DNA of 10,419 bases from an uncultured Candidatus Saccharibacteria bacterium (GTDB lineage: Bacteria; Patescibacteria; Saccharimonadia; Saccharimonadales; UBA6022): the NCBI GenBank assembly GCA_946479115.1, contig CAMLED010000025.1, positions 1-10,419 on the forward strand, written 5' to 3'. Below the pieces are notes generated by a model, which did not search any database, was not told the DNA's origin, and saw nothing but the letters and a program-made list of their open reading frames with translations. This document shows positions 1 through 10,419 of the stretch, in pieces. How positions within the stretch are numbered: position 1 is the first letter of the stretch; each line of letters begins with the position of its first letter. Made by a program: the position numbers and the translations under genes.

Positions 1-563
1 GAATCGCCTTTGAGAGATTTTAGGTCGAGGAATTGTTCAACATCAATGCCATATTTGTTCTCGAAATGTTCAACATCAAATTCTTCCAAATTACTAAGGC
101 CGTTCTTTAGTGCGTATACTTTTGTCGTCGGGCTAATCAACTGTAGCGCATCTAAATCACTCGTAAGTAAATAGGTTTCAATGCCCTTTTCGGTTGCTTG
201 TTTAGCAAAGGCGCCAAGAATATCATCCGCTTCGTAATCATCCAGCTCATACAATGGCCAACCGAAACCTTCGAGCAGCTCATATAGCAAAGGAATCTGT
301 GCGTAAAAATCATCCGGCGCTTTTTTACGACCGGCTTTATATTCTGGATAAATTTCGCGGCGTTTGCGAATATTAGTCCCTTTTTTATCCCACGCAACAG
401 CGACATAGTCGGGTTCAAGTTTCTTAATAAGCTCAATAGCGAGGCTAGCAAACCCAAACACGCCCCCTGTTGGCGTACCGTCAGATAAGCTTAGCCCTGG
501 CATGGCATAATAGCCTCTATAAAATACTGATTTTCCGTCGATTACTGCCAAGCGTTTTGTCAT
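1..563 (-). CDS. polA: DNA polymerase I, 5'-3' exonuclease domain (partial, runs off left edge)
   Basis: Reading the minus strand from the ATG at 563 gives 187 open codons that continue past base 1. The protein matches the 5'-3' exonuclease/flap endonuclease domain at the N-terminus of bacterial DNA polymerase I, which removes RNA primers and flaps during Okazaki fragment maturation and repair. Visible metal-site residues are D9 (in IDGKS), D59 (VAWDKKG), the EADD motif at 111-114, and D136 and D138 (TSDLDAL). The YKAGRKKAPDD stretch at 75-85 matches the conserved YK..R..PDD segment. The window ends at FLDLKSLKGD, just before the expected SSDNIPG helix-hairpin-helix motif. No cysteine is present. 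A TATACT box ends 6 nt before the ATG, so the mRNA is probably leaderless. Whether a polymerase domain follows cannot be seen; a stand-alone exonuclease is the alternative. Confidence 0.88.
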   Translation of the reverse strand, partial: MTKRLAVIDGKSVFYRGYYAMPGLSLSDGTPTGGVFGFASLAIELIKKLEPDYVAVAWDKKGTNIRKRREIYPEYKAGRKKAPDDFYAQIPLLYELLEGFGWPLYELDDYEADDILGAFAKQATEKGIETYLLTSDLDALQLISPTTKVYALKNGLSNLEEFDVEHFENKYGIDVEQFLDLKSLKGD

Positions 564-569
564 GCTACC

Positions 570-578
570 AGTATAACA
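570..578 (-). promoter_or_regulatory. Extended -10 promoter of the polA-type gene
   Basis: On the minus strand TGTTATACT reads as an extended -10 (TG, one base, TATACT). It ends 6 nt before the ATG at 563, so transcription should begin at or next to the A of the start codon. No -35 consensus is seen 16-18 bp upstream. It lies in the 28-bp gap after the pilin stop at 592. Confidence 0.65.
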
Positions 579-591
579 CCTTGACTATACC

Positions 592-1167
592 CTAGAACGT
601 GAAGACCTCTATCAGACAGCGGGTATAGCCGCTAACTCGCTGGGTGTATTTAGCATTCGTAAGTGTCACATTGTCATATGTAGGAGTTGGCGACAAAACA
701 TTGGGCAGCCCGCAGTCAGTATTCGGACCAACTGTATAATACAAAACCGCACGGTTATCACTGTAGTAATTAGCATGAAACCACAGCTGCCCTACTGGAT
801 TGCTGACTCCATACTTACCCAGCTGGATGGTCGAAACACCAGAATACGTCGCAAGCGTTTGGTTAAAGGTTGCGTCGTACGGCGTGTTCGTATTCCATAG
901 ATCGGAACTTGGACAAACCCCACCCGTAATCACTGACGGCGGTGCGATACATGACGATGTCGTTGGCCGTCCACTGGACGCCTCCCATGCTTTAAAGCCT
1001 TTAATGAGTGCACCGGCCTGTGCAATTATTCTTGTTGATTCGGCTCGTTCTTGGATGCCATTGTAGGCAACGATAGTGATTACCGCCAGAATAGCGATAA
1101 CAACAATAACAATCAGTAGCTCAACAATTGTAAAGCCCGCCTTTTTGTCGTGAATTAGCATATGCAT
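592..1167 (-). CDS. Type IV pilin-like protein with N-terminal methylation motif
   Basis: This 191-residue protein has a class III prepilin signal. A short basic leader ends in KKAG, followed by FTIVELLIVIV, with cleavage expected between G11 and F12 and the conserved glutamate at mature position 5 (E16). Residues 12-35 form the hydrophobic helix that anchors the pilin in the membrane and packs the fibre core. A prepilin peptidase would cut and methylate it before assembly into a type IV pilus or pseudopilus. The C-terminal globular part (about 60-191) has four cysteines, C73, C85, C152 and C184, which could form two disulfides outside the cell, and is rich in T, S, N and Y. Two ATGs are possible (M1 and M3); M1 is chosen because the -10 lies 9 nt ahead of it, but there is no clear Shine-Dalgarno for either. 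Major or minor pilin cannot be decided. Confidence 0.87.
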   Translation of the reverse strand: MHMLIHDKKAGFTIVELLIVIVVIAILAVITIVAYNGIQERAESTRIIAQAGALIKGFKAWEASSGRPTTSSCIAPPSVITGGVCPSSDLWNTNTPYDATFNQTLATYSGVSTIQLGKYGVSNPVGQLWFHANYYSDNRAVLYYTVGPNTDCGLPNVLSPTPTYDNVTLTNAKYTQRVSGYTRCLIEVFTF

Positions 1168-1176
1168 GTTGCATTC

Positions 1177-1185
1177 ATAATACCA
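1177..1185 (-). promoter_or_regulatory. Extended -10 promoter of the first pilin gene
   Basis: TGGTATTAT on the minus strand resembles an extended -10 and ends 9 nt before the ATG at 1167. This predicts a leader of about 2-3 nt. It sits in the 58-bp gap between the WhiB-family stop (1226) and the pilin, so the pilin can be transcribed independently of the regulator upstream. No -35 match is seen. Confidence 0.5.
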
Positions 1186-1225
1186 GTCAAAATATCACAT
1201 GAGCAAGCTACCTAGACCGATTGGC

Positions 1226-1573
1226 TTATAGATCGCCTAATGCTTCTTTGCGCTTTTTTCGCATGTTTTGACGTTCTTTGACGGTTGTTCCCGCCCAAAT
1301 GCCGCCACCATCTTCACTACTAGACAGCGCAAGCTGCGACTCTAGGCACGGTTCTTTGACATCACACTTCGCACATATTTTTCGTGCAGCTTCTGCACTA
1401 CCGCCTCTTTCTGGGAAGAATATATCGCCATCCATTTCTAGACATAGTGCCTTACTATGCCAGTCTTCATTCGGCTCAGGTTTGTCATGACCCGTATCAA
1501 CGATCGCAACGAATGCTAATTCTGGGCGTAATCGGTCACGACGAGAAACTTTCTCGAAAGGCATTTTTTCCAT
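1226..1573 (-). CDS. WhiB-family iron-sulfur transcriptional regulator
   Basis: This 115-residue protein has the WhiB (Wbl) signature. Four cysteines, C44, C67, C70 and C76, are spaced C-X22-C-X2-C-X5-C, the ligand pattern for a redox- or NO-sensitive [4Fe-4S] cluster. Also present are the conserved W38, the D..FFP segment (D50-P54), the turn GIWAGTT (91-97, matching the G[VI]WGG loop that contacts the sigma factor), and a basic tail (KKRKE, 106-110) for DNA contact. WhiB proteins typically act by binding region 4 of the primary sigma factor; a candidate partner, RpoD, is encoded about 1.3 kb away. A Shine-Dalgarno-like AGAGGA lies 6 nt upstream of the ATG. The family is regarded as essentially actinobacterial (plus their phages), so its presence here is notable. 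It is divergent from the kinase-pilin pair and just upstream of the other pilin gene; control of pilins is only a guess. Confidence 0.9.
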   Translation of the reverse strand: MEKMPFEKVSRRDRLRPELAFVAIVDTGHDKPEPNEDWHSKALCLEMDGDIFFPERGGSAEAARKICAKCDVKEPCLESQLALSSSEDGGGIWAGTTVKERQNMRKKRKEALGDL

Positions 1574-1579
1574 AGGTAT

Positions 1580-1604
1580 TCCTCTTTAATCTTCGGTTAT
1601 CATA
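1580..1604 (-). promoter_or_regulatory. WhiB-family gene promoter and ribosome binding site
   Basis: On the minus strand AGAGGA (1585-1580) lies 6 nt before the ATG at 1573, a fair Shine-Dalgarno site. A -10-like TATGAT is at 1604-1599, with a weak TTGTAC 17 bp further upstream. This gives a leader of about 19 nt, unlike the leaderless arrangement of several neighbours. The -10 call is tentative because the upstream TG seen at other promoters here is absent. Confidence 0.45.
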
Positions 1605-1645
1605 CGCCTCTCATTTAGCCGGTACAAGCATAATCAGAACAGGTT

Positions 1646-1654
1646 TGGTATACT
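1646..1654 (+). promoter_or_regulatory. Extended -10 promoter of the kinase-pilin operon
   Basis: TGGTATACT ends 7 nt before the ATG at 1662, so the transcript should start at or one base before the start codon. No Shine-Dalgarno fits in the space and no -35 consensus is seen. The 88-bp region 1574-1661 also holds the divergent WhiB-family promoter. Confidence 0.65.
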
Positions 1655-1661
1655 AAATCTA

Positions 1662-2237
1662 ATGAAGCACACTACAAACACAAAGATCGTCGCATTTGTT
1701 GGATTGACCGGCAGCGGCAAAAGCTCGGCCGTTGAATACTTAACTAGTAAAGGCTACCCAAAAGTTTATTTTGGTGGCGTCATTTATCAAGCAATGGAAG
1801 AAGCCGGCATTGAACGAACAGCAGAAAGTGAAACTAAATTCCGCGAAGAAATTCGGGAACGCGAAGGCAAAGACTTTGTCGTTAATCGGATTGTTACTCA
1901 AATTCGCGACCTCATCAATTCAGGTCAACACCGCATTGTTGCCGACGGTATCTATACATGGACTGAATATAAAATGATGAAACGTGAGTTCCCTGGTGAA
2001 CTTACGGTCTTTGCCGTCGTCGCACCAAAGCACTTACGTCACCACCGCCTAACCACTCGTCCAGAACGACCTTACACACTAGATGAAGCAAACCAACGCG
2101 ACTGGGCCGAGATCGAAAATCTAGAAAAAGGTGGACCGATTGCCATTGCCGATCACTACATCATCAACAATGGAAACCTTGACCATTTTCACGAACAGAT
2201 CGATACTGAACTGGAACACATTAATTTTTATAACTAG
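1662..2237 (+). CDS. P-loop NMP-kinase-like protein (UPF0200/CoaE-like)
   Basis: This 191-residue protein is a small P-loop phosphotransferase. The Walker A motif GLTGSGKS is at 14-21 after a hydrophobic beta strand (IVAFV). A second strand ends in VADGIYTWTEY (93-103), the usual acceptor-site position in nucleoside monophosphate kinases. A lid-like arginine-rich segment (R126, R129, R133, R136) is followed by RDWAEIENLEKGGPIAIADHY and an IINNG strand. This arrangement resembles the UPF0200/dephospho-CoA-kinase-like group, common in archaea and found in Patescibacteria. The substrate cannot be read from the sequence: a (d)NMP, dephospho-CoA or another small phosphate acceptor are all possible. 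It has no cysteine. It leads a predicted two-gene operon with a pilin gene 21 bp downstream; no functional link is known. Its own transcript is predicted to be leaderless. Confidence 0.8.
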   Translation: MKHTTNTKIVAFVGLTGSGKSSAVEYLTSKGYPKVYFGGVIYQAMEEAGIERTAESETKFREEIREREGKDFVVNRIVTQIRDLINSGQHRIVADGIYTWTEYKMMKREFPGELTVFAVVAPKHLRHHRLTTRPERPYTLDEANQRDWAEIENLEKGGPIAIADHYIINNGNLDHFHEQIDTELEHINFYN

Positions 2238-2248
2238 TGCAGCGGCAC

Positions 2249-2254
2249 AGAGGG
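2249..2254 (+). promoter_or_regulatory. Ribosome binding site of the second pilin gene
   Basis: AGAGGG lies 4 nt upstream of the ATG at 2259 (5 nt counting from GAGG), within the 21-bp gap after the kinase stop TAG. No -10 box is seen in the gap, so this gene is probably translated from the kinase transcript through this Shine-Dalgarno. Confidence 0.5.
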
Positions 2255-2258
2255 TGGC

Positions 2259-2834
2259 ATGAAACAAAAAGGTTTCACGATTGTTGAACTACTAGTCGTC
2301 ATCGCGGTCATTGGTATCTTGGCAACAATTGCGCTCGTAAGCTACCGCGGTGTACAAGCAAAAGCACGTGACACTGAACGTAAAACTGAAGTGCAAGCGA
2401 TTGCCGATGGCATCAAACTATACCGGTTGAAATATGGCAACGATATTGACATTGGCAGTGGCTGTGGCAGCAGCAACAATGGCTCTGGCTACTTCGCGTT
2501 TCAAGATCGAGGGGTACCTATCAGCACGACTTCTTATACTAAATCGATCATGCAATGTCTCGAAGAGGCTGGTTACCTTGATGGTGACATGATTGACCCC
2601 TCCAACTGCGTCAGTGGAGCATATGCCGCACTAGGAAAGGTTTGTAAACCTACGGGCTATTATTACATGAAATATACCTGTAATTACCAAGGACAAAGGG
2701 TCAGCGTCGTCTATGCACGTCTTGAAACCGAAGATCATACTAGTGACCTTGATAATTTTGATGGGGGCGCTAATACGTGCAGCTCTATAAGTGTCAAAGC
2801 TTATAATATGAACTATATGGTACTGGTTGATTAA
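2259..2834 (+). CDS. Type IV pilin-like protein with N-terminal methylation motif
   Basis: The five-residue leader MKQKG is followed by FTIVELLVVIAVIG, a textbook class III prepilin signal. Cleavage is expected between G5 and F6, with the conserved glutamate at E10. Residues 6-28 form the hydrophobic helix, then an amphipathic helix carries R and K residues (VQAKARDTERKTEVQAIADGIKLY) typical of PilA/PilE- and GspG-like proteins. The globular domain carries six cysteines (C69, C100, C117, C129, C141, C174), enough for three disulfides, with a glycine/serine-rich stretch at 66-77. Mature length is ordinary for a pilin. It shares the N-terminal motif, but little visible similarity beyond it, with the pilin at 592-1167. 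It follows the kinase-like gene in the same operon and ends 4 bp before a strong terminator hairpin. The subunit type cannot be assigned. Confidence 0.88.
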   Translation: MKQKGFTIVELLVVIAVIGILATIALVSYRGVQAKARDTERKTEVQAIADGIKLYRLKYGNDIDIGSGCGSSNNGSGYFAFQDRGVPISTTSYTKSIMQCLEEAGYLDGDMIDPSNCVSGAYAALGKVCKPTGYYYMKYTCNYQGQRVSVVYARLETEDHTSDLDNFDGGANTCSSISVKAYNMNYMVLVD

Positions 2835-2837
2835 TTG

Positions 2838-2889
2838 GCTCAATAAAAAAATACCTCGCTGATAGTAGCGAGGTATTTTTTTATTGAGC
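2838..2889. terminator. Bidirectional intrinsic terminator, perfect 23-bp inverted repeat
   Basis: Arms 2838-2860 and 2867-2889 are perfectly complementary around a 6-nt loop. The GC-rich core is ACCTCGCT/AGCGAGGT, and seven A on one side mirror seven T on the other, so either strand gives a hairpin with a U tract. It lies between the convergent stops of the second pilin (2834) and rpoD (2898) and fits termination of both transcripts. Confidence 0.93.
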
Positions 2890-2897
2890 AATCTAGA

Positions 2898-3896
2898 TTA
2901 CCCGAGGTATTCGTGAAGTTTCTTCGCATCTTTGTGCTTACGAAGTTTCGCGAGTGCTTTAGCTTCGATCTGGCGAATTCGCTCACGCGTGACGGCAAAT
3001 TCTTGGCCGACTTCTTCAAGCGTGTGACTCTTGCCATTTTCAAGACCAAAACGCATTTTGACAATCTTTTGCTCGCGATCAGATAGCGTTGAAAGGATTG
3101 ATTGCACTTGCTCTTTTAGTAACTGGTTTGCGGCAGACTCTTCTGGTGTTGCACCATCTTCGTCTTCGATGAAGTCACCAAGAACTGAATCTTCGTCTTC
3201 ACCATCGCGGCCAACACCAGCATCAAGTGACGTGATATCTTGTTTGATCTTAATCACGTATTCAACTTTTTCTGGTTCCATCTCAAGTTCTTTACCAAGC
3301 TCTTCAATGGTTGGCTCACGGTTTAGCTCCTGAGTCATACGACGCTGCGTACGAAGCAACTTGTTGATAGTCTCCACCATGTGTACCGGAATACGAATTG
3401 TACGAGCCTGGTCGGCGATCGCACGGGTAATAGCCTGGCGGATCCACCATGTGGCGTAGGTTGAAAACTTAAATCCCTTGTCCGGATCAAATTTTTCAAC
3501 GGCGCGGAGCAAACCAGTGTTACCTTCTTGGATTAGATCAAGGAAATCAAGACCACGGCCGCTATAACGCTTGGCAATTGAAACGACCAAACGCATGTTA
3601 GCTTCAGCCATCTTATCTTTGGCTTTCTTTTCACCAGCGACGACACGCTGCGCAAGAGCGAGCTCTTCTTCGGCGTTTAGCAGTGGAATTTTACCAATTT
3701 CACGCAGGTACAAACGAACGCTGTCGTCGGACACATCGTCAAAATATTGGCCGCTGTTAATCGTTTCCTCGTCAGCTTCTTCTTCATCAACTAGATCGTC
3801 GAGCGCTGGTTCGTCAATATCACTCAGTGGACCACCACTAGCGTCAATTACCAAATTTTCATCAAGTACTTCTTCAACTACATCATCTTTGGCCAC
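2898..3896 (-). CDS. rpoD: Primary RNA polymerase sigma factor RpoD/SigA
   Basis: This 332-residue protein is the housekeeping sigma-70 factor, which directs RNA polymerase to -10/-35 promoters. After an acidic N-terminal tail (about 1-55, no standard region 1.1) come region 1.2 ([16 protein letters not shown], 58-73), regions 2.1-2.4 (about 97-167, with [19 protein letters not shown] and the -10-reading segment [13 protein letters not shown] at 144-156), region 3 (about 168-250) and region 4 (about 262-326, with the helix-turn-helix [20 protein letters not shown]). The start is GTG; a strong AAAGGAG 7 nt upstream and the loss of homology before it support this choice. The first 14 nt overlap the end of dnaG, indicating a dnaG-rpoD operon with translational coupling. 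The rpsU gene of the classical macromolecular synthesis operon is absent here. The protein has no cysteine. Region 4 is the surface WhiB proteins usually bind. Confidence 0.97.
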
Positions 3897-5640
3897 GTGT
3901 TATCTCCTTTATAAGTGTATTCAGCTGGGCGCGCAGTTCAGTTGCTTTGGCATCATCACCACTGAGCTCTGCTTCGCGAAGCTGATTCGTTAATGCTGCC
4001 TGTGTTTGTTTCTTGTGTTCGTTTACTACTTGGCGGAGTAATCGTGCTGATTCAAAGTAACGATCTTGGTCGTTCCAATCAGCGTAGCGAGTCTCGGCCT
4101 TCAATAATAGTATTTTCACATACGTGTCGTAATTTTGCAACTCCTTAGGGGTTGTCTGCACACTTTTTCCTGCGTGAGTTGCCAGATAGGTGGCGACTGC
4201 TTGACGCTCTTCGTTGGCAAAGGCCGTTTGGTCAATTGTCGCAAATAATTCTTGGCTTGGCCCATCCAGCAAAGCCACCGCGAGCAAGTCATCTTGATAC
4301 GCGGTATTATCTTTTTCCACCCGTGACAGCGCGCCAGCCACAGGCCGGCGGGTTGGTGCCGTTTCAGCCACAGGCACACTCGCGAGTTTTGTCTTGACCG
4401 CCTCGAGCGAGGAGCCAATCATGGTCGCAATCTTCTTTTCGTAGTGGTCCTGTTCAACTGGATCTTGTAATGATCGGACGACATTCAGCGCAGCTGTCGT
4501 AAACAATCGTTTTCCACTGGCTGTCGTGACATCTTCACGCTGACTGTACTGATCCAAAATCCAATCCACCGCTGGCTGGCTACTATCAATTGCCTTTTGC
4601 CACAACGCCACATCCTGCTGAATTAATTCGTCTGGATCTTTGGCCCCTTCAGGCAGGCTAATAATCGTCAGCTCTACCCCAACCTCACTAGCAATTGGAA
4701 TTGCTCGTTCAGTCGCAGCAATGCCAGCTTTGTCGGCATCAAATGCTAATCGCACGTGGCCCGTCAGGCGCTTCAAAGCACGTAAATGTTGCTCGGTCAT
4801 CGCCGTCCCCGCGGTTGCCACTACCTGGGATACACCGGCCTGATGGCTGCTAACAACATCCAAGTTTCCCTCAACAATTACTGCGTAATCATTGGTGCGG
4901 ATCGCTTCTTTTGCCTGACTCAGACCAAAAACATGACGGCTTTTGTCGTACAGCAACGTTTGTGGTGTGTTCAGATATTTTGGCGCATTTGGATCATCCC
5001 CGCCCAAGATACGCGCCGTAAATCCAATAACTTGGCCACTGGCATCCATCAGCGGCACCATCATACGTCCACGGAACAAATCGCCACCAAAACGGTTCGT
5101 TAACCCCGCATCACTTAGCTCTTGGCGGCTAAAACCCTTTTTTGTCAAAAACTGTGTCAACGCTGTGCCGCTGGTTGGTGCATAGCCAATCATAAAATCT
5201 TGAACAATTTTCTTAGACAGTCCGCGCTGTTTAAAGACATAGTCGATAGCATGCTGATTTTTAAGCAAACTATGTTGGTAGTACTGTGTCGCCAGGCTAT
5301 GTGCTTCCAGTAGTCGCTTCTTGCGACGCGCTAGATCTTGGCTGCCTTTTGATTCATACAAAGTCAGGTCGACATTCGCCTTGCGCGCCAGGTGTTCCAG
5401 GGCCTGACGAAAGTCCATGCCTTCGACTTGCATAACAAATGAGAAGATATCACCGCCCTTATTCGACGAGAAGTCATGCCAAATATGTTTGTCTGGACTT
5501 ACGAAAAAGCTCGGCGTTTTTTCGCCGCTAAACGGACTGAGACCCTTGAAGTTACGACCAGCTCGTTTGAGCTGCACATACTCGCCAATCACATCCTCAA
5601 TGTTCAGTCGCGCACGGACTTCTTCTTTGGCGTCTTGCAT
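3883..5640 (-). CDS. dnaG: DNA primase DnaG with a zinc-ligand-less CHC2-like domain
   Basis: This 585-residue primase (close to the ~580 of E. coli DnaG) makes RNA primers at the replication fork. The N-terminal zinc-finger fold is recognisable ([20 protein letters not shown], then [19 protein letters not shown]), but all four ligand positions are changed: the usual Cys, His, Cys, Cys are S35, S38, D56 and S59. The central catalytic core is normal, with RGRMMVPL (190-197), the TOPRIM acidic residues E257 and D261 (VEGNLDVV), D301 and D303 (FDADKAG) and the KDPDE motif (334-338). A linker at about 421-443 leads to a divergent C-terminal helicase-binding domain. There is not one cysteine in the protein. 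It is the first gene of the dnaG-rpoD operon. A TATAAT ending 6 nt before the ATG predicts a leaderless message. The finger may keep its fold without zinc; a sequencing error cannot explain four separate substitutions. Confidence 0.96.
3904..3910 (-). promoter_or_regulatory. Ribosome binding site of rpoD
   Basis: AAAGGAG on the minus strand lies 7 nt before the GTG at 3896, inside the last codons of dnaG. It fixes the GTG start, since no ATG with a comparable site is nearby. Together with the 14-nt overlap it suggests rpoD is translated by re-initiation or coupling after dnaG. Confidence 0.8.
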
Positions 5641-5646
5641 AATTTG

Positions 5647-5655
5647 ATTATATCA
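5647..5655 (-). promoter_or_regulatory. Extended -10 promoter of dnaG-rpoD
   Basis: TGATATAAT on the minus strand is a consensus extended -10. It ends 6 nt before the dnaG ATG at 5640, so the predicted +1 is the A of ATG. There is no -35 consensus 16-18 bp upstream and no room for a Shine-Dalgarno. Confidence 0.75.
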
Positions 5656-5727
5656 TTCTTTACCTCTGTCGCCTCCCCTATCACTATTGCCCACAGCACA
5701 AGCGTTATTGCCGCTACCCGTCCCGTA

Positions 5728-5736
5728 TGCTTAAAT
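5728..5736 (+). promoter_or_regulatory. Weak extended -10 promoter of the membrane protein gene
   Basis: TGCTTAAAT has the upstream TG but a poor hexamer. It ends 8 nt before the ATG at 5745, again predicting a leader of 0-2 nt. The rest of the 104-bp divergent region 5641-5744 shows nothing beyond this and the dnaG promoter. Confidence 0.4.
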
Positions 5737-5744
5737 AGACCCAT

Positions 5745-6356
5745 ATGAATCCAGAGACGCCTCAGTTACCAATTGATTATTTGAATCAAATCGCCCCTGC
5801 GCCACAAAAGCCAGGCTTGAATAAACGGTCACTGTTAATGGTCGTTATCTTAATTGGTGTCGTCCTGACGATTGTTATTAGTTTTGTCGTTTTCATCAGC
5901 AATGCTAGTGGCGGCCCAAAAACTGACATGCAAACATTGGCTATTCGCATGCAAGCATTACAAAAGGTAGCCGACACCTCGCAGAAGAACATCAAAAGTA
6001 GCTCTCTTCGTGGCGTGAACAGCAATCTTAAATCTTTCTTGTCGAATGCCAATCGCGACATTGTTGACCCATTGGCAGCTAACAAAATTGATATCAAGAA
6101 ACTTGATAAGAAACTTGTCGCCAAAGTAGAAGCAGACACACTCAAAGCCGATCTAGAAGATGCCCGTCTTAACGCGACGTTTGATGACACCTACGCCCGT
6201 GAAATGAGCTACCGGCTAACTACCCTGTCGATCCTAATGGAATCAATTTATAACACTAGCCACAGCAAATCCCTCAAGGATTTCTTGGTCGCAACCGACG
6301 ACAACCTACAGCCAATCAAAAAACAACTCGACGAATTTAATTCGACGAACCGCTAA
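5745..6356 (+). CDS. Single-pass membrane protein of unknown function
   Basis: I do not recognise a family for this 203-residue protein. A proline-rich cytoplasmic N-terminus (residues 1-24, with PETPQLP and APAPQKPG) is followed by positive charges (K26, R28), then a strongly hydrophobic helix at about 29-52. The remaining ~150 residues are predicted to face outward. They are charged, lack cysteine and look mostly helical, with two K/D/L-rich stretches (about 105-140 and 180-198) that could form a coiled coil or helical bundle. The positive-inside rule supports N-in, C-out. It is transcribed divergently from dnaG and its 3' end overlaps the convergent YjbR-like gene by 20 nt. A role at the cell envelope is inferred only from topology. 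Confidence 0.85.
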   Translation: MNPETPQLPIDYLNQIAPAPQKPGLNKRSLLMVVILIGVVLTIVISFVVFISNASGGPKTDMQTLAIRMQALQKVADTSQKNIKSSSLRGVNSNLKSFLSNANRDIVDPLAANKIDIKKLDKKLVAKVEADTLKADLEDARLNATFDDTYAREMSYRLTTLSILMESIYNTSHSKSLKDFLVATDDNLQPIKKQLDEFNSTNR

Positions 6357-6681
6357 CCAAATTGTAGCTAAGACGTATCAGATCTTGGAACTCGTCTTCT
6401 GGCATCTGACCAGTATATAAAATCGTATTCCAGTGTTTTTTGTTCAAGTGATACCCAGGTAGCACTGTTTCATATTTTTCTCGGAGTAATTCGGCAAGTT
6501 GCGGATCACATTTTAGGCTCACACGGAGTGGCCTGCTATCATCGGCTACAATCGCAAACATTTTTGCCGTACCATCTGTTTTATCACCCACCTTGTAAAC
6601 TGACGTTTTTTCGTCAAACGGAAAATCCAACCAAGTGTTTGGGTAACTAAGTAATAATTCATCGAGTTCTTGTCGGTTCAT
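6337..6681 (-). CDS. MmcQ/YjbR family protein
   Basis: This 114-residue protein fits the small MmcQ/YjbR family, which has a CyaY-like fold and is often annotated as DNA-binding without a firmly established role. Family hallmarks visible are LDFPFDEKTSVYKVG (18-32), KMFAIV (40-45), the LKCDP motif (56-60) and PGYHLNKKHWN (75-85). Length is typical of the family. Its ATG overlaps the stop of the upstream orn gene (ATGA, 4 nt), so it is probably translated by coupling from the same transcript; only a weak AGGA lies 11 nt upstream. Its 3' end overlaps the convergent membrane protein gene by 20 nt, with no hairpin terminator between them. Confidence 0.9.
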   Translation of the reverse strand: MNRQELDELLLSYPNTWLDFPFDEKTSVYKVGDKTDGTAKMFAIVADDSRPLRVSLKCDPQLAELLREKYETVLPGYHLNKKHWNTILYTGQMPEDEFQDLIRLSYNLVSGSSN

Positions 6682-7241
6682 GCTTTCACTTTTCCTAAAT
6701 AATACTGTAATTCCATAATACTGCCACGGATATCACCCAGCGCACGGTGCTCTTCAGGCTTGGCAAATTTCTTGCCAAATTTACCCTCAAACACAACTTT
6801 CCAAGCACTGACGTCTAACATGCGGTAATGGAGCCGTTCGTCGAGACGATGCCATTCGTTGGCAATAAATTTACGGTCCTGATGAATCGAATTACCCGCC
6901 AGCAGCACTGGTTTGTCAGCTTCAAAATGCTCGTCTAGAAATGCCAACAATTCATTTTCAATCGTACGGCCTGAACGACCCTTTTCATGATTTTGCAAAA
7001 TCAATCCATCGCGCGCTTCGGGATTAGCATCCCAGAACGCCTTGCCGACTTTCATACGACGCTCGACTAAACGAGGTCCAACTTTAACGATGCCTTCATA
7101 CGTGGCAAGCTCATTAAAATTCCAGTCGGTCACAATTGCGGCGACTTCTAAAATACGATCTTCAATAGGATCAAGTCCCGTCATTTCCAGGTCAACCCAT
7201 AAAATTTTTTTCAGCCGCGCGTTGGCAAGTTTTTTATCCAT
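6678..7241 (-). CDS. orn: Oligoribonuclease (DEDDh 3'-5' exoribonuclease)
   Basis: This 187-residue protein is an oligoribonuclease, which degrades the 2-5 nt RNA fragments left by other nucleases and the linear dinucleotides from cyclic-di-nucleotide breakdown. DEDDh catalytic residues are visible: D17 and E19 (WVDLEMTGLDP), D122 (NSIHQDRKF), H165 and D170 (EEHRALGDIRGSI). The segments ILEVAAIVTDWNF and LLAGNSIHQDR are also family-typical, and the length matches E. coli Orn (181). There is no cysteine. A TGCTATACT box sits in the 18-bp gap after msrB and ends 6 nt before the ATG, so it should have its own leaderless transcript that also carries the YjbR-like gene. Confidence 0.96.
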   Translation of the reverse strand: MDKKLANARLKKILWVDLEMTGLDPIEDRILEVAAIVTDWNFNELATYEGIVKVGPRLVERRMKVGKAFWDANPEARDGLILQNHEKGRSGRTIENELLAFLDEHFEADKPVLLAGNSIHQDRKFIANEWHRLDERLHYRMLDVSAWKVVFEGKFGKKFAKPEEHRALGDIRGSIMELQYYLGKVKA

Positions 7242-7247
7242 AGGACT

Positions 7248-7256
7248 AGTATAGCA
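7248..7256 (-). promoter_or_regulatory. Extended -10 promoter of orn
   Basis: TGCTATACT on the minus strand ends 6 nt before the ATG at 7241, predicting transcription from the A of ATG. The site fits entirely between the msrB stop (7260-7262) and orn. No -35 consensus is seen. Confidence 0.65.
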
Positions 7257-7259
7257 ATG

Positions 7260-7679
7260 TTATTGCTGTTCGTCCTCTGTTCGACCGCTGTCTGGCGTAA
7301 ACTGTAGACTCAGTGAATTAATACAGTACCGCTGATCTGTCGGCACGCCGAGCCCTTCACCTTCAAATACATGACCTAGATGGCCACCACACGTCGCACA
7401 GGTTACTTCTGTGCGTACCATGCCAAACTTATTATCTTCATGGAAATCAACCGCTCCAGGAATCGCATCATAAAAGCTTGGCCAGCCGCACTCTGCGTCG
7501 AACTTGGTTTTACTATCAAATAGCTTTGTGCCACATGCTGCACAGCTATAGGTGCCAGGGTCAAAGAGACTATCGTATTCACCCGTAAAGGCCACTTCAG
7601 TACCTTTTTCGCGCAGCACATGATACTGTTCGGGTGTCAGTTCGTCTTCCCATTCACTCTCGGTTTTATCAATCTTCAT
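7260..7679 (-). CDS. msrB: Peptide-methionine (R)-S-oxide reductase MsrB
   Basis: This 139-residue enzyme reduces methionine-R-sulfoxide in proteins, repairing oxidative damage. The structural zinc site is intact, with C46/C49 (CAAC) and C94/C97 (CATC). The catalytic cysteine is C119 in RYCINS, and the resolving cysteine is C64 in ECGWPSF. The GGHLGHVF motif is at 98-105. N-terminal [21 protein letters not shown] is the standard MsrB opening, so the start is well placed. The last 12 residues are an acidic, polar tail. It is a stand-alone MsrB with no fused or adjacent MsrA. It lies between mscL and orn on the same strand but has its own -10 box and is separated from mscL by a terminator hairpin. 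Confidence 0.97.
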
Positions 7680-7685
7680 GCTTCT

Positions 7686-7691
7686 ATTATA
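7686..7691 (-). promoter_or_regulatory. -10 box of msrB
   Basis: A perfect TATAAT on the minus strand ends 6 nt before the ATG at 7679, predicting a leaderless transcript. The extended -10 TG is replaced by CG. Its -35 region falls inside the terminator inverted repeat at 7696-7734. Confidence 0.65.
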
Positions 7692-7695
7692 CCGC

Positions 7696-7734
7696 GATTT
7701 AAAAAGTCGCTCGGATGGAGCGACTTTTTAAATC
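7696..7734 (-). terminator. Intrinsic terminator of mscL, perfect 17-bp inverted repeat
   Basis: Arms 7696-7712 and 7718-7734 are perfectly complementary around a 5-nt loop. The GC-rich core is AGTCGCTC/GAGCGACT with a T5 tract in the distal arm. It begins 3 bp after the mscL stop and ends 4 bp before the msrB TATAAT. Being symmetric it could act on either strand, but only mscL needs it. Confidence 0.88.
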
Positions 7735-7737
7735 ATT

Positions 7738-8130
7738 TTAGCTTTTCTTTTTATCCAAGCGATCGAGCTTGGCAATGTGAATTAGCCAGTAAATAACAAA
7801 GGCTGTTGCCAGTAAGGTAATGACAGATGAAAGGATTGCACCCCATTCAATTTCTAGACCACCTTTGCCTTGACCGTTAGCCTTCACAATCACCCAGCTA
7901 AGTTCACTGAGATCAATGCCACCAATTAAAAAGCCGACGATTGGGTTGATAAACCCGTCAACAATTTGCTTGACTGATGCACCGGCTGCAGTACCAATTG
8001 CAAGACCGACCGCTAGGCCAACGACACCTTGCTCACGAACAAAGGCCAAGAAGCCATTGCCACGTTCCTTTACTGCTGCAGCTGCAACAGCAGGATTCTT
8101 TTTAGTTGCTGGTTTTTTCTTATCTGCCAT
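7738..8130 (-). CDS. mscL: Large-conductance mechanosensitive channel MscL
   Basis: This 130-residue protein matches MscL, the homopentameric channel that opens under membrane tension to release solutes on hypo-osmotic shock. The first helix includes GLAVGLAIGTAAGASVKQIV (38-57), with the small-residue gate pattern, and leads to INPIVGFLIGGIDLSEL (61-77), matching the MPPLGLLIGGIDF segment of E. coli MscL. The second helix is at about 95-118, and a basic C-terminal tail ends in KKKS. Two things differ from E. coli: a lysine/alanine-rich N-terminal extension of about 20 residues (MADKKKPATKKNPAVAAAAV) and a glycine-rich periplasmic loop (ANGQGKGG). The start is supported by AAAAAGGAG 5 nt upstream. 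The gene has its own promoter and terminator, so it is monocistronic. Confidence 0.94.
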   Translation of the reverse strand: MADKKKPATKKNPAVAAAAVKERGNGFLAFVREQGVVGLAVGLAIGTAAGASVKQIVDGFINPIVGFLIGGIDLSELSWVIVKANGQGKGGLEIEWGAILSSVITLLATAFVIYWLIHIAKLDRLDKKKS

Positions 8131-8135
8131 ATAAT

Positions 8136-8144
8136 CTCCTTTTT
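8136..8144 (-). promoter_or_regulatory. Ribosome binding site of mscL
   Basis: AAAAAGGAG on the minus strand lies 5 nt before the ATG at 8130. It is the strongest Shine-Dalgarno in the window for a gene with its own promoter, in contrast to the leaderless neighbours. Confidence 0.85.
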
Positions 8145-8154
8145 CTTATCTGAA

Positions 8155-8163
8155 AGTATAGCA
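8155..8163 (-). promoter_or_regulatory. Extended -10 promoter of mscL
   Basis: TGCTATACT is identical to the orn promoter box. It ends 24 nt before the ATG, giving a predicted leader of about 18 nt that contains the Shine-Dalgarno. It lies in the 50-bp gap after the upstream membrane protein gene. Confidence 0.65.
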
Positions 8164-8180
8164 GACACCAGCGGCGTCAG

Positions 8181-8807
8181 CTACTGATTCACTTGGCGCT
8201 GCTGAGTTAAAATATGCCTAATACCAAAACTACGACGCTGCAATAAATAACGGCCAAACAAACTTGCTACAATTACCGCACCGCCTAGCCCGTACGCCAT
8301 ATCGGTCATAGTATCGAACAAATCGGCGCGTTGCATAAATGTCCCCAGTACATGATCCGATGTAAACTCTACCAACTCCCATACGACAGCCACCAATGCC
8401 CCCGTTGCAATCACCATAAAGACTTGCAGCCACACTGGTAAGCGCACGGTTTGGCGCTCATGTAAATATGTCATCCAAATCACGCTCACCAGTCCGACTA
8501 ATAAGCCCGAAATAATATGCACACCATCATCCCACAAGGTAATTTTTCCATACATGTCCAGCAGCTCGGCGGCATATACCGACACAAACAAAAAACCAAC
8601 ATACAAACAATGTAAAATCGGTGCAAATCGTATTCCCCACACGCGCTCAGCTAGCGGCAATAACATACAGGCGACAAGAATCCCTATGGTCGCAAATGCA
8701 TGACCAGATTGCCCTGCCCCGACAAACACCGGTATACTCAGCACCATAATAACTTCAAACGGAAATGCCCAAATATGTCGCTTGATAACGTCGCGACTAA
8801 TCTTCAT
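8181..8807 (-). CDS. Six-helix integral membrane protein, DUF2238/YjdF-like
   Basis: This 208-residue protein has six predicted membrane helices, at about 12-30, 37-54, 61-80, 97-114, 125-143 and 168-186. Conserved-looking polar motifs lie next to helices: LWDDGVHIISG (91-101), VVWELVEFTSD (141-151) and DTMTDMAYGLGGA (165-177). The spacing of WDDxxH, WExxEF and DxxxD resembles the DUF2238/YjdF membrane family (and more distantly VanZ-like proteins), whose function is unknown. Acidic and histidine residues facing one side could bind a metal or a lipid headgroup, but that is inference. It starts 2 nt after the argS stop TAG, so it is almost certainly cotranscribed and translationally coupled with argS. 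No terminator hairpin is evident before the mscL promoter. Confidence 0.82.
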   Translation of the reverse strand: MKISRDVIKRHIWAFPFEVIMVLSIPVFVGAGQSGHAFATIGILVACMLLPLAERVWGIRFAPILHCLYVGFLFVSVYAAELLDMYGKITLWDDGVHIISGLLVGLVSVIWMTYLHERQTVRLPVWLQVFMVIATGALVAVVWELVEFTSDHVLGTFMQRADLFDTMTDMAYGLGGAVIVASLFGRYLLQRRSFGIRHILTQQRQVNQ

Positions 8808-8809
8808 CG

Positions 8810-10419
8810 CTACATCTTCTCTGGCGCGTCGATACCAAGGATAGCGAGCCCAGCGGCAAGCGTATCGGCATACAGCGCAACGATGCCGGCGCGATGTGCT
8901 TCGTGTTCATTGCCAGCAACTTGATTCTTTTCGTAGTATCGATTAAATTCTTGTGCCAGTTCAAACAAATAGTTACAAATATGATGCGGTTCAAGTGTAC
9001 GAATCGCCTGCTCAACCACTTCGGTATATTCGCCAAGTTTACGAACGAGCGTGCGGTCTTCTTCGTGAACGGTAGTTGGCATGGCAAATGTACCAGTTTT
9101 TTCTAGAATACGGCGAGCACGAGCATGAGCATACTGTAGATATGGACCTGAATTACCCTGCAGGCTCACGGTCTCTTCAATATCAAACGCAATGTCGCCG
9201 CCCAGTTTATACCGAGCAAAGGCGTATTTAATAGCACCGAGGGTTACTTTCTCGACTAACTCTTTGTCTTCAACTAGCTCACTGACTTTTTCGCGGACAA
9301 TATCTATGACATCGAGTGCACGCGTTACATTACCTAGTCGTGAACTCATTTTTTTACCATCAGCAAATTTGACCGTGCCATTCGTCATATGGGTCATCGT
9401 GCCGGCAAGTTCCGGGCGGAATGCTTCAGCGGCTGCATACACAACGCGCATGTATTCTTTTTGATCATTTCCCGTCAGGAGGTAGCGGTGTTCAAAATTG
9501 TAATCCTCTTTTTCCATCCAAATAACACCAATATCTTTGGTTTCATAAGTCGGTAAGCCTTTTGAAGTAACGAACACGCGTGTGTGCAAATGTTTCGACT
9601 CGTCGCCTTCAAACACGACGGCGCCATCAGATTTCTTTAACACGCCTTTTTCTAGCTGCTCCTGCACAACTTTCATACCCACAACAGCCGTTTGGCTTTC
9701 AGGGTAATAACGCATCGCTTCGACGTCGATGAGTTTATAAAAGGCATCAAAATAATCGTAGCTCCACTGACGAGTCGTCCAGTACATCTGCGCAAGTGGT
9801 GACGTATGATCGTCGCTACTGTGGAAGCCGTAGATTATCTTGTTTAGCTCATCAATATCGGTCTTTGCAGTAGTGTCTTCTTCGTACGCGCTAGCGCCGC
9901 GGACATAACACCCGCTAATCCAACGTGAACGTTCAAATGGATCGGTACTAACTGTCTCAAGTTTTTCAGGATACTCCCCGCCTAGTTCAGCCACCATGCC
10001 CCATAGACATTTCGCCACATGTAATCCAACATCGCCGCCAAAACTAGTGCGTTGCAGATCAGCACCACCAACCAGCATCAAACGTGATGCGATGTCACCA
10101 AATACCGTCTGATACAGGTGTCCGGTATGTAGTTCTTTGAATGCATTCGGACAGCTGTATTCGAATACAATTTTGCGACCAGCATAGCCTGGCTTTGGAT
10201 TCTTGCGAGTCAGCGAAAGAAGTGCCGTGTCACCCAGGCGAATATTAATAAAACCAGGTCCGGCCACAGACACTTCGGTAAAATCTTCGTTTTCGCGAAG
10301 TTTCGCCGCGATTTCTTCGGCGATTTCACGCGGGTTTTTACCCAGTGGCTTGGCGAGTTGTAATGCCACGTTGGTGGCGTAATCGCCAAACTGCGCGTCG
10401 GGACGCGTTAATACGACAG
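8810..10419 (-). CDS. argS: Arginyl-tRNA synthetase (N-terminus beyond right edge)
   Basis: This class I aminoacyl-tRNA synthetase charges tRNA-Arg. The reading frame stays open to the right edge. Upstream of the GTG at 10369 it continues with TRPDAQFGDYATN, the conserved end of the ArgS N-terminal tRNA-recognition domain, so that GTG is an internal valine and the gene is truncated by the window. At least 536 codons are present, of a usual 550-580. The HIGH motif appears as HTGH in PNAFKELHTGHL (around 10129-10118) and the KMSKS loop as KKMSSRLGNV (around 9355-9326). The C-terminal DALR anticodon-binding domain is complete (HHICNYLFELAQEFNRYYEKNQV...), ending in DAPEKM. The gene downstream begins 2 nt after its TAG stop, suggesting an argS-membrane protein operon. 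Its promoter is outside the window. Confidence 0.97.
   Translation of the reverse strand, partial: VVLTRPDAQFGDYATNVALQLAKPLGKNPREIAEEIAAKLRENEDFTEVSVAGPGFINIRLGDTALLSLTRKNPKPGYAGRKIVFEYSCPNAFKELHTGHLYQTVFGDIASRLMLVGGADLQRTSFGGDVGLHVAKCLWGMVAELGGEYPEKLETVSTDPFERSRWISGCYVRGASAYEEDTTAKTDIDELNKIIYGFHSSDDHTSPLAQMYWTTRQWSYDYFDAFYKLIDVEAMRYYPESQTAVVGMKVVQEQLEKGVLKKSDGAVVFEGDESKHLHTRVFVTSKGLPTYETKDIGVIWMEKEDYNFEHRYLLTGNDQKEYMRVVYAAAEAFRPELAGTMTHMTNGTVKFADGKKMSSRLGNVTRALDVIDIVREKVSELVEDKELVEKVTLGAIKYAFARYKLGGDIAFDIEETVSLQGNSGPYLQYAHARARRILEKTGTFAMPTTVHEEDRTLVRKLGEYTEVVEQAIRTLEPHHICNYLFELAQEFNRYYEKNQVAGNEHEAHRAGIVALYADTLAAGLAILGIDAPEKM

Follow-up and report, generated by a model that had tools for sequence, protein, structure and literature searches.

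How do genes of Saccharibacteria begin their messages when a promoter-like box stands almost against the start codon? The question is raised by a stretch of 10,419 nucleotides (nt) from an uncultured Candidatus Saccharibacteria bacterium (lineage UBA6022; assembly GCA_946479115.1, contig CAMLED010000025.1, positions 1 to 10,419), hereafter called the window, in which a first-pass annotation had noticed seven -10-like boxes ending 6-9 nt before a start codon. All seven distances between box and ATG were re-measured and lie at 6-9 nt; six of the boxes are strong, and the seventh, TTAAAT before the gene of a 203-amino-acid (203-aa) membrane protein, is weak with 4/6 matches to the -10 consensus (Table 1). 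The TGn motif of an extended -10 precedes five of the six strong boxes, the exception being msrB. That these genes lack a Shine-Dalgarno (SD) site was borne out, as no SD 4-mer lies near the start of any of the seven; the only SD-like 4-mers, 14-15 nt before the polA start and 17 nt before that of NMP kinase, overlap the box or lie upstream of it. Two contrast cases in the window, mscL and a WhiB-family gene, have ordinary leaders of 18-19 nt with SD sites (GGAG at a gap of 5 nt and GAGG/AGGA at 6-7 nt, respectively). We posit, with a probability of roughly 0.88, that the boxes are sigma-70 promoters placed for leaderless transcription and SD-independent translation.

The DnaG encoded in the window reaches 86% identity with its counterparts in named Saccharibacteria assemblies (66 loci), and the genome-wide statistics reported here were obtained on a close relative rather than on the window, namely L003/G001 (JAUCSD010000001.1, a contig of 1,164,240 bp; DnaG 81%). 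Genes were called with our own script from coding potential and start-codon type only (1143 genes, 996 with ATG); since this caller ignores the sequence upstream of starts, an upstream signal cannot stem from it. A box was defined as a TA..T hexamer with at least 4/6 matches to TATAAT that ends 6-9 nt before ATG, and 200 dinucleotide shuffles served as background. Boxes were found at 124/310 divergent genes (shuffle mean 31.4, sd 5.2, max 45), at 101/345 same-strand genes whose upstream stretch measures 50 nt or more (mean 28.5, max 46) and at 23/64 with 25-49 nt upstream (mean 4.5, max 11). Aligning the upstream regions on the start codon, a check proposed with the first-pass annotation, brought out a sharp -10 peak located 6-7 nt ahead of the starts, far above shuffles; at divergent genes the 6-nt position holds 53/310, against 8.9 per position further upstream. 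The identical test in Escherichia coli found a box at 1/177 annotated starts (8.1 expected).

A/T-rich intergenic DNA could by chance yield TATAAT-like hexamers anywhere, and the background is indeed not low: 460/5495 non-start intergenic ATGs in G001 carry such a hexamer at 6-9 nt, as do 1122/31495 ATGs inside genes. Yet the shuffle maxima fall far short of the 124 and 101 boxes observed, pattern counts across the phylum depend on the spacing (see below) and orthologs conserve the box. The first-pass annotation had called chance unlikely; for the box set as a whole it is refuted, and we regard it as practically out of the question, while single boxes such as those of the 203-aa gene and the first pilin gene (pilin1) could be due to chance.

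The character of the boxes points to promoters. When the 154 G001 boxes at 6-7 nt were aligned, the pattern TnTGnTATAAT emerged, with T in 66% and G in 68% at the extended positions, which were not part of the box selection. TG stands before the box in 278/557 boxed compared with 207/770 leadered genes, so that about half of the boxes have the extended form. A strict extended -10 (TGnTA[TA]nnT, at least 5/6, intergenic, with a free path to a start) was found in G001 at gaps below 5 nt in 2 cases, at 5-9 nt in 93, at 10-12 nt in 18, at 13-20 nt in 1, at 21-60 nt in 75 and at 61-200 nt in 51. The reverse-complement motif reached only 2 at 5-9 nt and 32 at 10-60 nt (forward 93 and 94). The assemblies G177, G003, G026 and G021 were analysed on stretches of their genomes; pooling G001, G177, G003 and the dnaG-linked loci, which are partly redundant, gave 126, 62, 64, 23, 16 and 13 sites at 6 to 11 nt, 6 in total at 12-18 nt and a broad hump from about 20 nt onward. 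Promoter-start distances are thus bimodal, the zone between being nearly empty. A secondary -10 peak at 11 nt in G177 (8/82 divergent, 13/124 same-strand genes) suggests a group of genes whose leaders measure about 4-5 nt.

The first-pass annotation had held that most genes with their own promoter look leaderless. This is so in the window (7/9, counting the weak box) and among strong extended -10 sites no more than 60 nt from a start (304/525 at 6-11 nt in the partly redundant pool), but not in G001, where 248/719 non-operon ATG genes have a box and about 64 would be expected by chance (three shuffle means summed). The leaderless share is otherwise about a quarter to a half, depending on the measure, and "most" is too strong.

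SD site and box are nearly mutually exclusive in G001, where an SD is present at 3/124 boxed divergent and 2/101 boxed same-strand genes versus 73/186 and 115/244 unboxed ones. Boxed genes likewise seldom have another strong extended -10 at 20-54 nt (5/225 in G001, 1/62 in G177, 0/88 in G003), which is commoner at genes heading a transcript with an SD (30/188, 25/81 and 8/55). The usual transcription start-site pattern is Y(-1)R(+1), and at gap 6 a pyrimidine precedes the ATG in 205/244 cases versus 421/732 SD-led genes (p 1e-14), as if transcription started at the A of ATG. Position -3 prefers A when the gap is 9 or 10 (0.55 and 0.62; SD-led genes also reach 0.46), as if transcription then began 3 nt upstream. 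The start codon itself is ATG in 273/277 genes at gaps of 5-9 nt and in 292/326 at 20-200 nt (p 2e-6), a preference that would be consistent with translation from a 5'-terminal AUG.

These properties also bear on the reading that the box is an unstructured, A/T-rich leader stretch friendly to ribosomal protein S1 or the ribosome, with transcription beginning further upstream. Nakagawa (2017, PMC5397173) raises S1 binding as one way to read the AT-rich stretches that other phyla show at -20 to -10. A general A/T preference would not, however, nearly empty the zone at 13-20 nt, and the signal shows a single-position peak, TGn in front and the gap-6 pyrimidine before A, is far weaker at operon-type genes and is seldom accompanied by a second strong extended -10. 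We consider such a leader very improbable as an explanation.

The sigma factor encoded in the window fits promoters of the extended type. Residues H172 and E175 of its RpoD align with E. coli H455 and E458 in region 3.0, which we take to be the residues reading TGn; both are conserved, and the residues at E. coli R584, E585 and R588 are kept as well. A -35 match of at least 4 was seen at 136/557 leaderless promoters (66/557 at control spacing) and 196/770 leadered ones (130/770 at control spacing). The idea that leaderless promoters lack a -35 element was dropped, as the whole sets do not differ (p 0.70); a difference appears only in the TGn subset (68/278 versus 75/207). Scanning the window for simple sigma-70 pairs of -35 and -10 gave no excess (16 found, 16.3 expected), because such a scan requires a -35 element, which many promoters of this kind seem to lack. 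Some Saccharibacteria encode additional RpoD-like sigma factors no more than about 17 kb away from rpoD (G003:C1 about 1373749-1390262; G007:C36 about 71925-76681).

Conservation was followed gene by gene in 67 records (G001, 400 kb of G177 and 65 dnaG-linked loci), counting only relatives whose start codon aligns with that of the window. For polA, 49 relatives reach the N-terminus and 28 have an aligned start; the box stands at 6-7 nt in all 28 and is preceded by TGn in 7. The NMP kinase start aligns in 38/46 relatives and is thus well supported by homology; 37 of the 38 have a box at 6-8 nt, all 37 with TGn. At dnaG, 46 of the 49 aligned-start relatives (of 65) carry the box, 25 with TGn. 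The simple SD test flags 1/28 polA and 0/38 NMP kinase orthologs. The opposite layout is kept just as faithfully: rpoD has an SD in 10/10 aligned-start relatives (of 30) and a box in none, and mscL an SD in 7/7 (of 22) and no box at 6-10 nt. Across the dnaG loci the best -10 lies at 6-10 nt in 54 of the 64 examined (of 66), 38 of them at 6 nt; the deepest branches are less clean, and 3 loci are without a start codon at the expected place. Other genes vary more. The box is present in 26/55 aligned-start relatives of mmcQ (of 63) and 2/12 of argS (of 45; the start of the window argS is outside the window or uncertain), and a standard -10 in 4/14 of the 203-aa gene (of 47), where a TTAAATAG-like stretch is kept at the box position in several relatives. 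No relative has an aligned start for pilin1 (6 relatives), the second pilin gene (pilin2; 7), the WhiB gene (1) or the VanZ-like gene (2).

Pairs of genomes were compared through best mutual matches with agreeing ATG starts. Between G001 and G177 (99/250 pairs) the box is kept in 19/26 cases versus 8/73 (p 7e-9), between G001 and G003 (26/143 pairs) in 5/8 versus 3/18 (p 0.06), and between G001 and G026 (21/152 pairs) in 3/5 versus 1/16 (p 0.03).

The alignments decide how far the starts themselves can be trusted. The first-pass annotation had taken those of dnaG, orn, msrB and polA as fixed by homology, which is true of dnaG (49/65 aligned) and fairly so of polA (28/49), but not of orn (14/52) or msrB (5/29). 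With such low figures for two genes and a home-made caller, starts might have been mis-called, the true start being a downstream codon with its own SD and the mRNA leadered. Downstream in-frame starts preceded by an SD are indeed slightly commoner at boxed genes of G003 (11/95 versus 6/87 SD-led). They are not clearly commoner in G001 (15/248 versus 16/340) or G177 (5/76 versus 17/169), and for polA, NMP kinase and dnaG an aligned start codon comes with a box, which makes systematic mis-calling highly unlikely in our view.

A ACAGAGGTAAA stretch lies directly upstream of the dnaG extended -10 (window 5658-5669, minus strand) and is kept in many Saccharibacteria, for example at the loci L001-L007, L009, L011, L017, L019, L024, L025, L027, L046, L049 and L065; in others, such as L010, L012 and L013, ACAGAGG directly abuts TATAAT. 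The 13-mer AACAGAGGTAAAG occurs once in G001. This stretch may be a dnaG-specific operator or promoter element.

The two layouts are unevenly distributed among genes. Labels were assigned in G001 with a small, hand-picked set of 52 E. coli proteins, 41 of which had a best match there (that of the mreB query was dnaK). No box at 6-9 nt stands before any of the 25 genes found for ribosomal proteins, RpoA, RpoB, RpoC, EF-Tu, NusG and SecY; the simple test assigns an SD to 22 of them, and an SD likewise leads dnaK, ileS, mscL and rpoD. The box is carried by dnaG, tsaD, def, dnaJ, pykF and sufS; pheS has both box and SD, and carB, fmt, murB and pheT have neither. Loss of initiation factors was considered as a cause and discarded: IF3 (infC) is present in 12/12 Saccharibacteria checked, bS21 has a match in 10/12, only 3 over the cut-off and none in G001 or G005, and these data do not explain the pattern. 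A 16S rRNA search of G001 gave no match.

For the wider phylum, the exact pattern TGNTATAMT-N6-ATG was counted in 239 genomes of Patescibacteria, with N14 spacing and the backward-read pattern as controls. There were 2571 N6 matches versus 449 with N14 and 220 read backward; N6 exceeded N14 in 210 genomes, equalled it in 14 and fell below it in 15. Genomes with an RpoD identity of at least 72% were termed Saccharibacteria-like (19 genomes listed); the remaining 220, 4 of the 239 being without an RpoD match, are defined by the listed matches, in which weaker ones are incompletely represented. The former have 439 N6 versus 50 N14 matches, the latter 2132 versus 399. The median count is 9, and 100, 87 and 48 were reached in G118, G166 and G172; by RpoD, G118 and G166 are Saccharibacteria-like (74-75%) and G172 is not (55%). 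Boxes at 6-9 nt were found in 31/82 divergent genes of G177 (versus 2.6 per position further upstream) and in 52/116 of G003 (11.2 expected). G026, which is not Saccharibacteria-like and has 63% GC, has them in 22/72 (3.1 expected) despite zero exact-pattern matches, so that the exact-pattern count can miss the trait. In G021, same-strand genes peak at gap 6 (16/171). The counts suggest a trait that would be widespread in Patescibacteria, if not uniform.

Several observations weigh against the leaderless reading or limit its reach. TGn is absent in 21/28 polA orthologs, and the simple SD test flags 11/49 dnaG orthologs, probably on account of the ACAGAGG stretch adjoining the box. The box recurs in only 4/14 aligned-start relatives of orn (of 52) and 2/5 of msrB (of 29). 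A pyrimidine before ATG is not enriched at gap 7 (80/129) or gap 8 (55/115) relative to the 421/732 of SD-led genes. Operon-type genes (same strand, gap below 25 nt) are not box-free in G001, with 23/277 versus a shuffle mean of 13.5 and a maximum of 22; in a pool of 57 dnaG-linked loci, 62/224 genes of this class have a box and the class is not clean, probably because short gaps can house a leaderless promoter, e.g. that of mmcQ. Gene starts were assigned by our own script, and the dnaG loci form a redundant pool. In 29/239 genomes the N6 count does not exceed the N14 count, and the divergent genes of G021 (not Saccharibacteria-like, 37% GC) show no clear excess (13/70, 11.5 expected).

Leaderless transcription from sigma-70 promoters nevertheless remains the best explanation. 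The boxes, about half of them of the extended type TGnTATAAT, would direct RNA polymerase to start at the A of AUG or no more than about 3 nt away. Genes behind them would be transcribed as leaderless mRNAs and translated without an SD, presumably via recognition of the 5'-terminal AUG. A second class in the same genomes would have leaders of about 14 nt or more with SD sites and would comprise, among the genes checked, ribosomal proteins, RNA polymerase, EF-Tu, DnaK and many operon-internal genes. The position of the boxes, their specificity, their exclusion of SD sites and their conservation at several genes are observed directly. We infer the actual 5' ends and the initiation route from promoter geometry.

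The closest known arrangement is the "-10 motif adjacent to ORF" of Deinococcus-Thermus, which the accessible text of Zhong et al. (2025, PMC12340547) describes as TANNNT about 6-7 bp before the open reading frame (ORF), present at nearly a third of D. radiodurans genes beside SD-led ones and acting as promoter for leaderless mRNA. The -10 spacing and the SD-led genes alongside are common to both. Unlike that motif, the box of Saccharibacteria is often TATAAT or TATACT with TGn, belongs to Patescibacteria genomes of about 1 Mb and is described here from the sequence. The same text reports no pathway bias for Deinococcus-Thermus, whereas in G001 the 25 genes of the ribosomal, RNA polymerase, NusG, SecY and EF-Tu set, small as it is, are box-free. 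The portion available of the survey of 953 bacterial genomes by Zheng et al. (2011, PMC3160421) describes TA-led genes with a TA-like signal about 10-12 bp upstream, above dinucleotide shuffles, and stresses Actinobacteria and Deinococcus-Thermus, in agreement with the first-pass annotation, which had named Actinobacteria and Deinococcus as known cases. In our set, too, a -10-like hexamer lies about 10-12 nt upstream above shuffles with SD sites absent, and SD-led genes occur in the same genome; TM7 does not occur in the main text of that survey (PMC3160421). Mycobacteria similarly combine leaderless and SD-led genes in one genome, as far as the accessible text of two reports goes (PMC3898074, PMC4633059), but their transcription starts were mapped, and ours are read from the DNA. 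The leaderless-bacteria group of GeneMarkS-2 (Lomsadze 2018, via the available part of PMC9581028) is another close known system. The first-pass annotation knew of no description for this lineage, and we found none of leaderless genes in Saccharibacteria or Patescibacteria in the literature searched, which held few subscription papers and no bioRxiv, so that priority is not proven; in the available text of papers pairing "leaderless" with the lineage, the word stands only in reference titles or concerns YchF generally. The mechanism is known elsewhere; the points that seem new are the lineage, the geometry with its two states and the conservation gene by gene.

Table 1. Boxes, genes and other features of the window, with distances counted from the box to the ATG.
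Feature	Position	Strand	Remark
polA-type gene (DNA polymerase I 5'-3' exonuclease end)	3..563	-	NCBIfam TIGR00593 6.5e-54; predicted leaderless
-10 box TATACT	570..575	-	6 nt from polA-type ATG (563); TGn in front
pilin1, type IV pilin-like, N-methylation motif	592..1167	-	Pfam PF07963 2.5e-7
-10 box TATTAT	1177..1182	-	9 nt from pilin1 ATG (1167); TGn in front
WhiB-family iron-sulfur regulator	1226-1573	-	PF02467 2.4e-17
-10 box TATGAT	1599..1604	-	25 nt from WhiB-family gene ATG (1573); contrast case
-10 box TATACT	1649..1654	+	7 nt from NMP-kinase-like ATG (1662); TGn in front
NMP-kinase-like (AAA_18) gene	1662..2237	+	Pfam PF13238 1.2e-7; predicted leaderless
rpoD (sigma-70)	2898..3896	-	SD-led; GTG start overlaps dnaG end
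dnaG, first gene of dnaG-rpoD operon	3883..5640	-	TIGR01391 3.6e-113; predicted leaderless
-10 box TATAAT	5647..5652	-	6 nt from dnaG ATG (5640); TGn in front
weak -10-like TTAAAT	5731..5736	+	8 nt from 203-aa membrane protein ATG (5745); TGC in front
orn (oligoribonuclease)	6678..7241	-	NF003765 2.2e-40; predicted leaderless
-10 box TATACT	7248..7253	-	6 nt from orn ATG (7241); TGn in front
msrB	7260..7679	-	TIGR00357 1.9e-45; predicted leaderless
-10 box TATAAT	7686..7691	-	6 nt from msrB ATG (7679); TGn absent
17-pair hairpin, terminator-like	7696..7734		between mscL and msrB -10
-10 box TATACT	8155..8160	-	24 nt from mscL ATG (8130); contrast case

Within the window, the hairpin lies 4 nt from the msrB -10 box and 16 nt from the msrB ATG. 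Although listed for the plus strand only, it has a self-complementary stem and therefore forms on the minus strand too, and at this distance an mRNA starting past the hairpin has practically no leader. The orn gene follows msrB on the same strand by 18 nt and polA, which is cut by the window end and incomplete, follows pilin1 by 28 nt; trailing so closely, neither necessarily requires its own box, and orn may be co-transcribed with msrB as well. The genes rpoD, mmcQ, pilin2 and the VanZ-like gene each closely trail a same-strand gene; SD-like sites precede rpoD and pilin2, mmcQ has only AGGA at 11 nt, and the VanZ-like gene has none. The predicted leader of pilin1 is about 0-3 nt. The two type IV pilin-like proteins, each of 191 aa (592-1167, minus strand; 2259-2834, plus strand), are encoded on either side of the WhiB and NMP-kinase genes, and few of their relatives have a comparable N-terminus. 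The WhiB family is typical of Actinobacteria, the usual hosts of Saccharibacteria; among the 67 records, only one relative of the WhiB gene reaches the N-terminus.

Taken over the genomes, the predicted leaderless-type layout is widespread in Saccharibacteria, often with an extended -10, and conserved at several genes; it is probably present in much of Patescibacteria. A broader picture seems to us evenly poised between true and false: leaderless genes would be the standard layout across much of Patescibacteria, leaders would fall into two discrete kinds, one of about 0-5 nt and one that has an SD and measures about 14 nt or more, the choice would be kept per gene class-wide, the SD would serve largely the gene-expression machinery and operon-internal genes, and leaderless genes may dominate in G118 and G166. 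If the leaderless reading is true, a sizeable fraction of the proteins in a very large and little-studied bacterial radiation would be started with no textbook ribosome-binding site. Start-codon annotation of these genomes would be affected, as would the way expression cassettes are designed for those few Saccharibacteria that can be manipulated genetically. As each layout is retained among orthologs, what leaderlessness does to expression could be tested directly, and the finding would bear on how a reduced ribosome picks its start codons.

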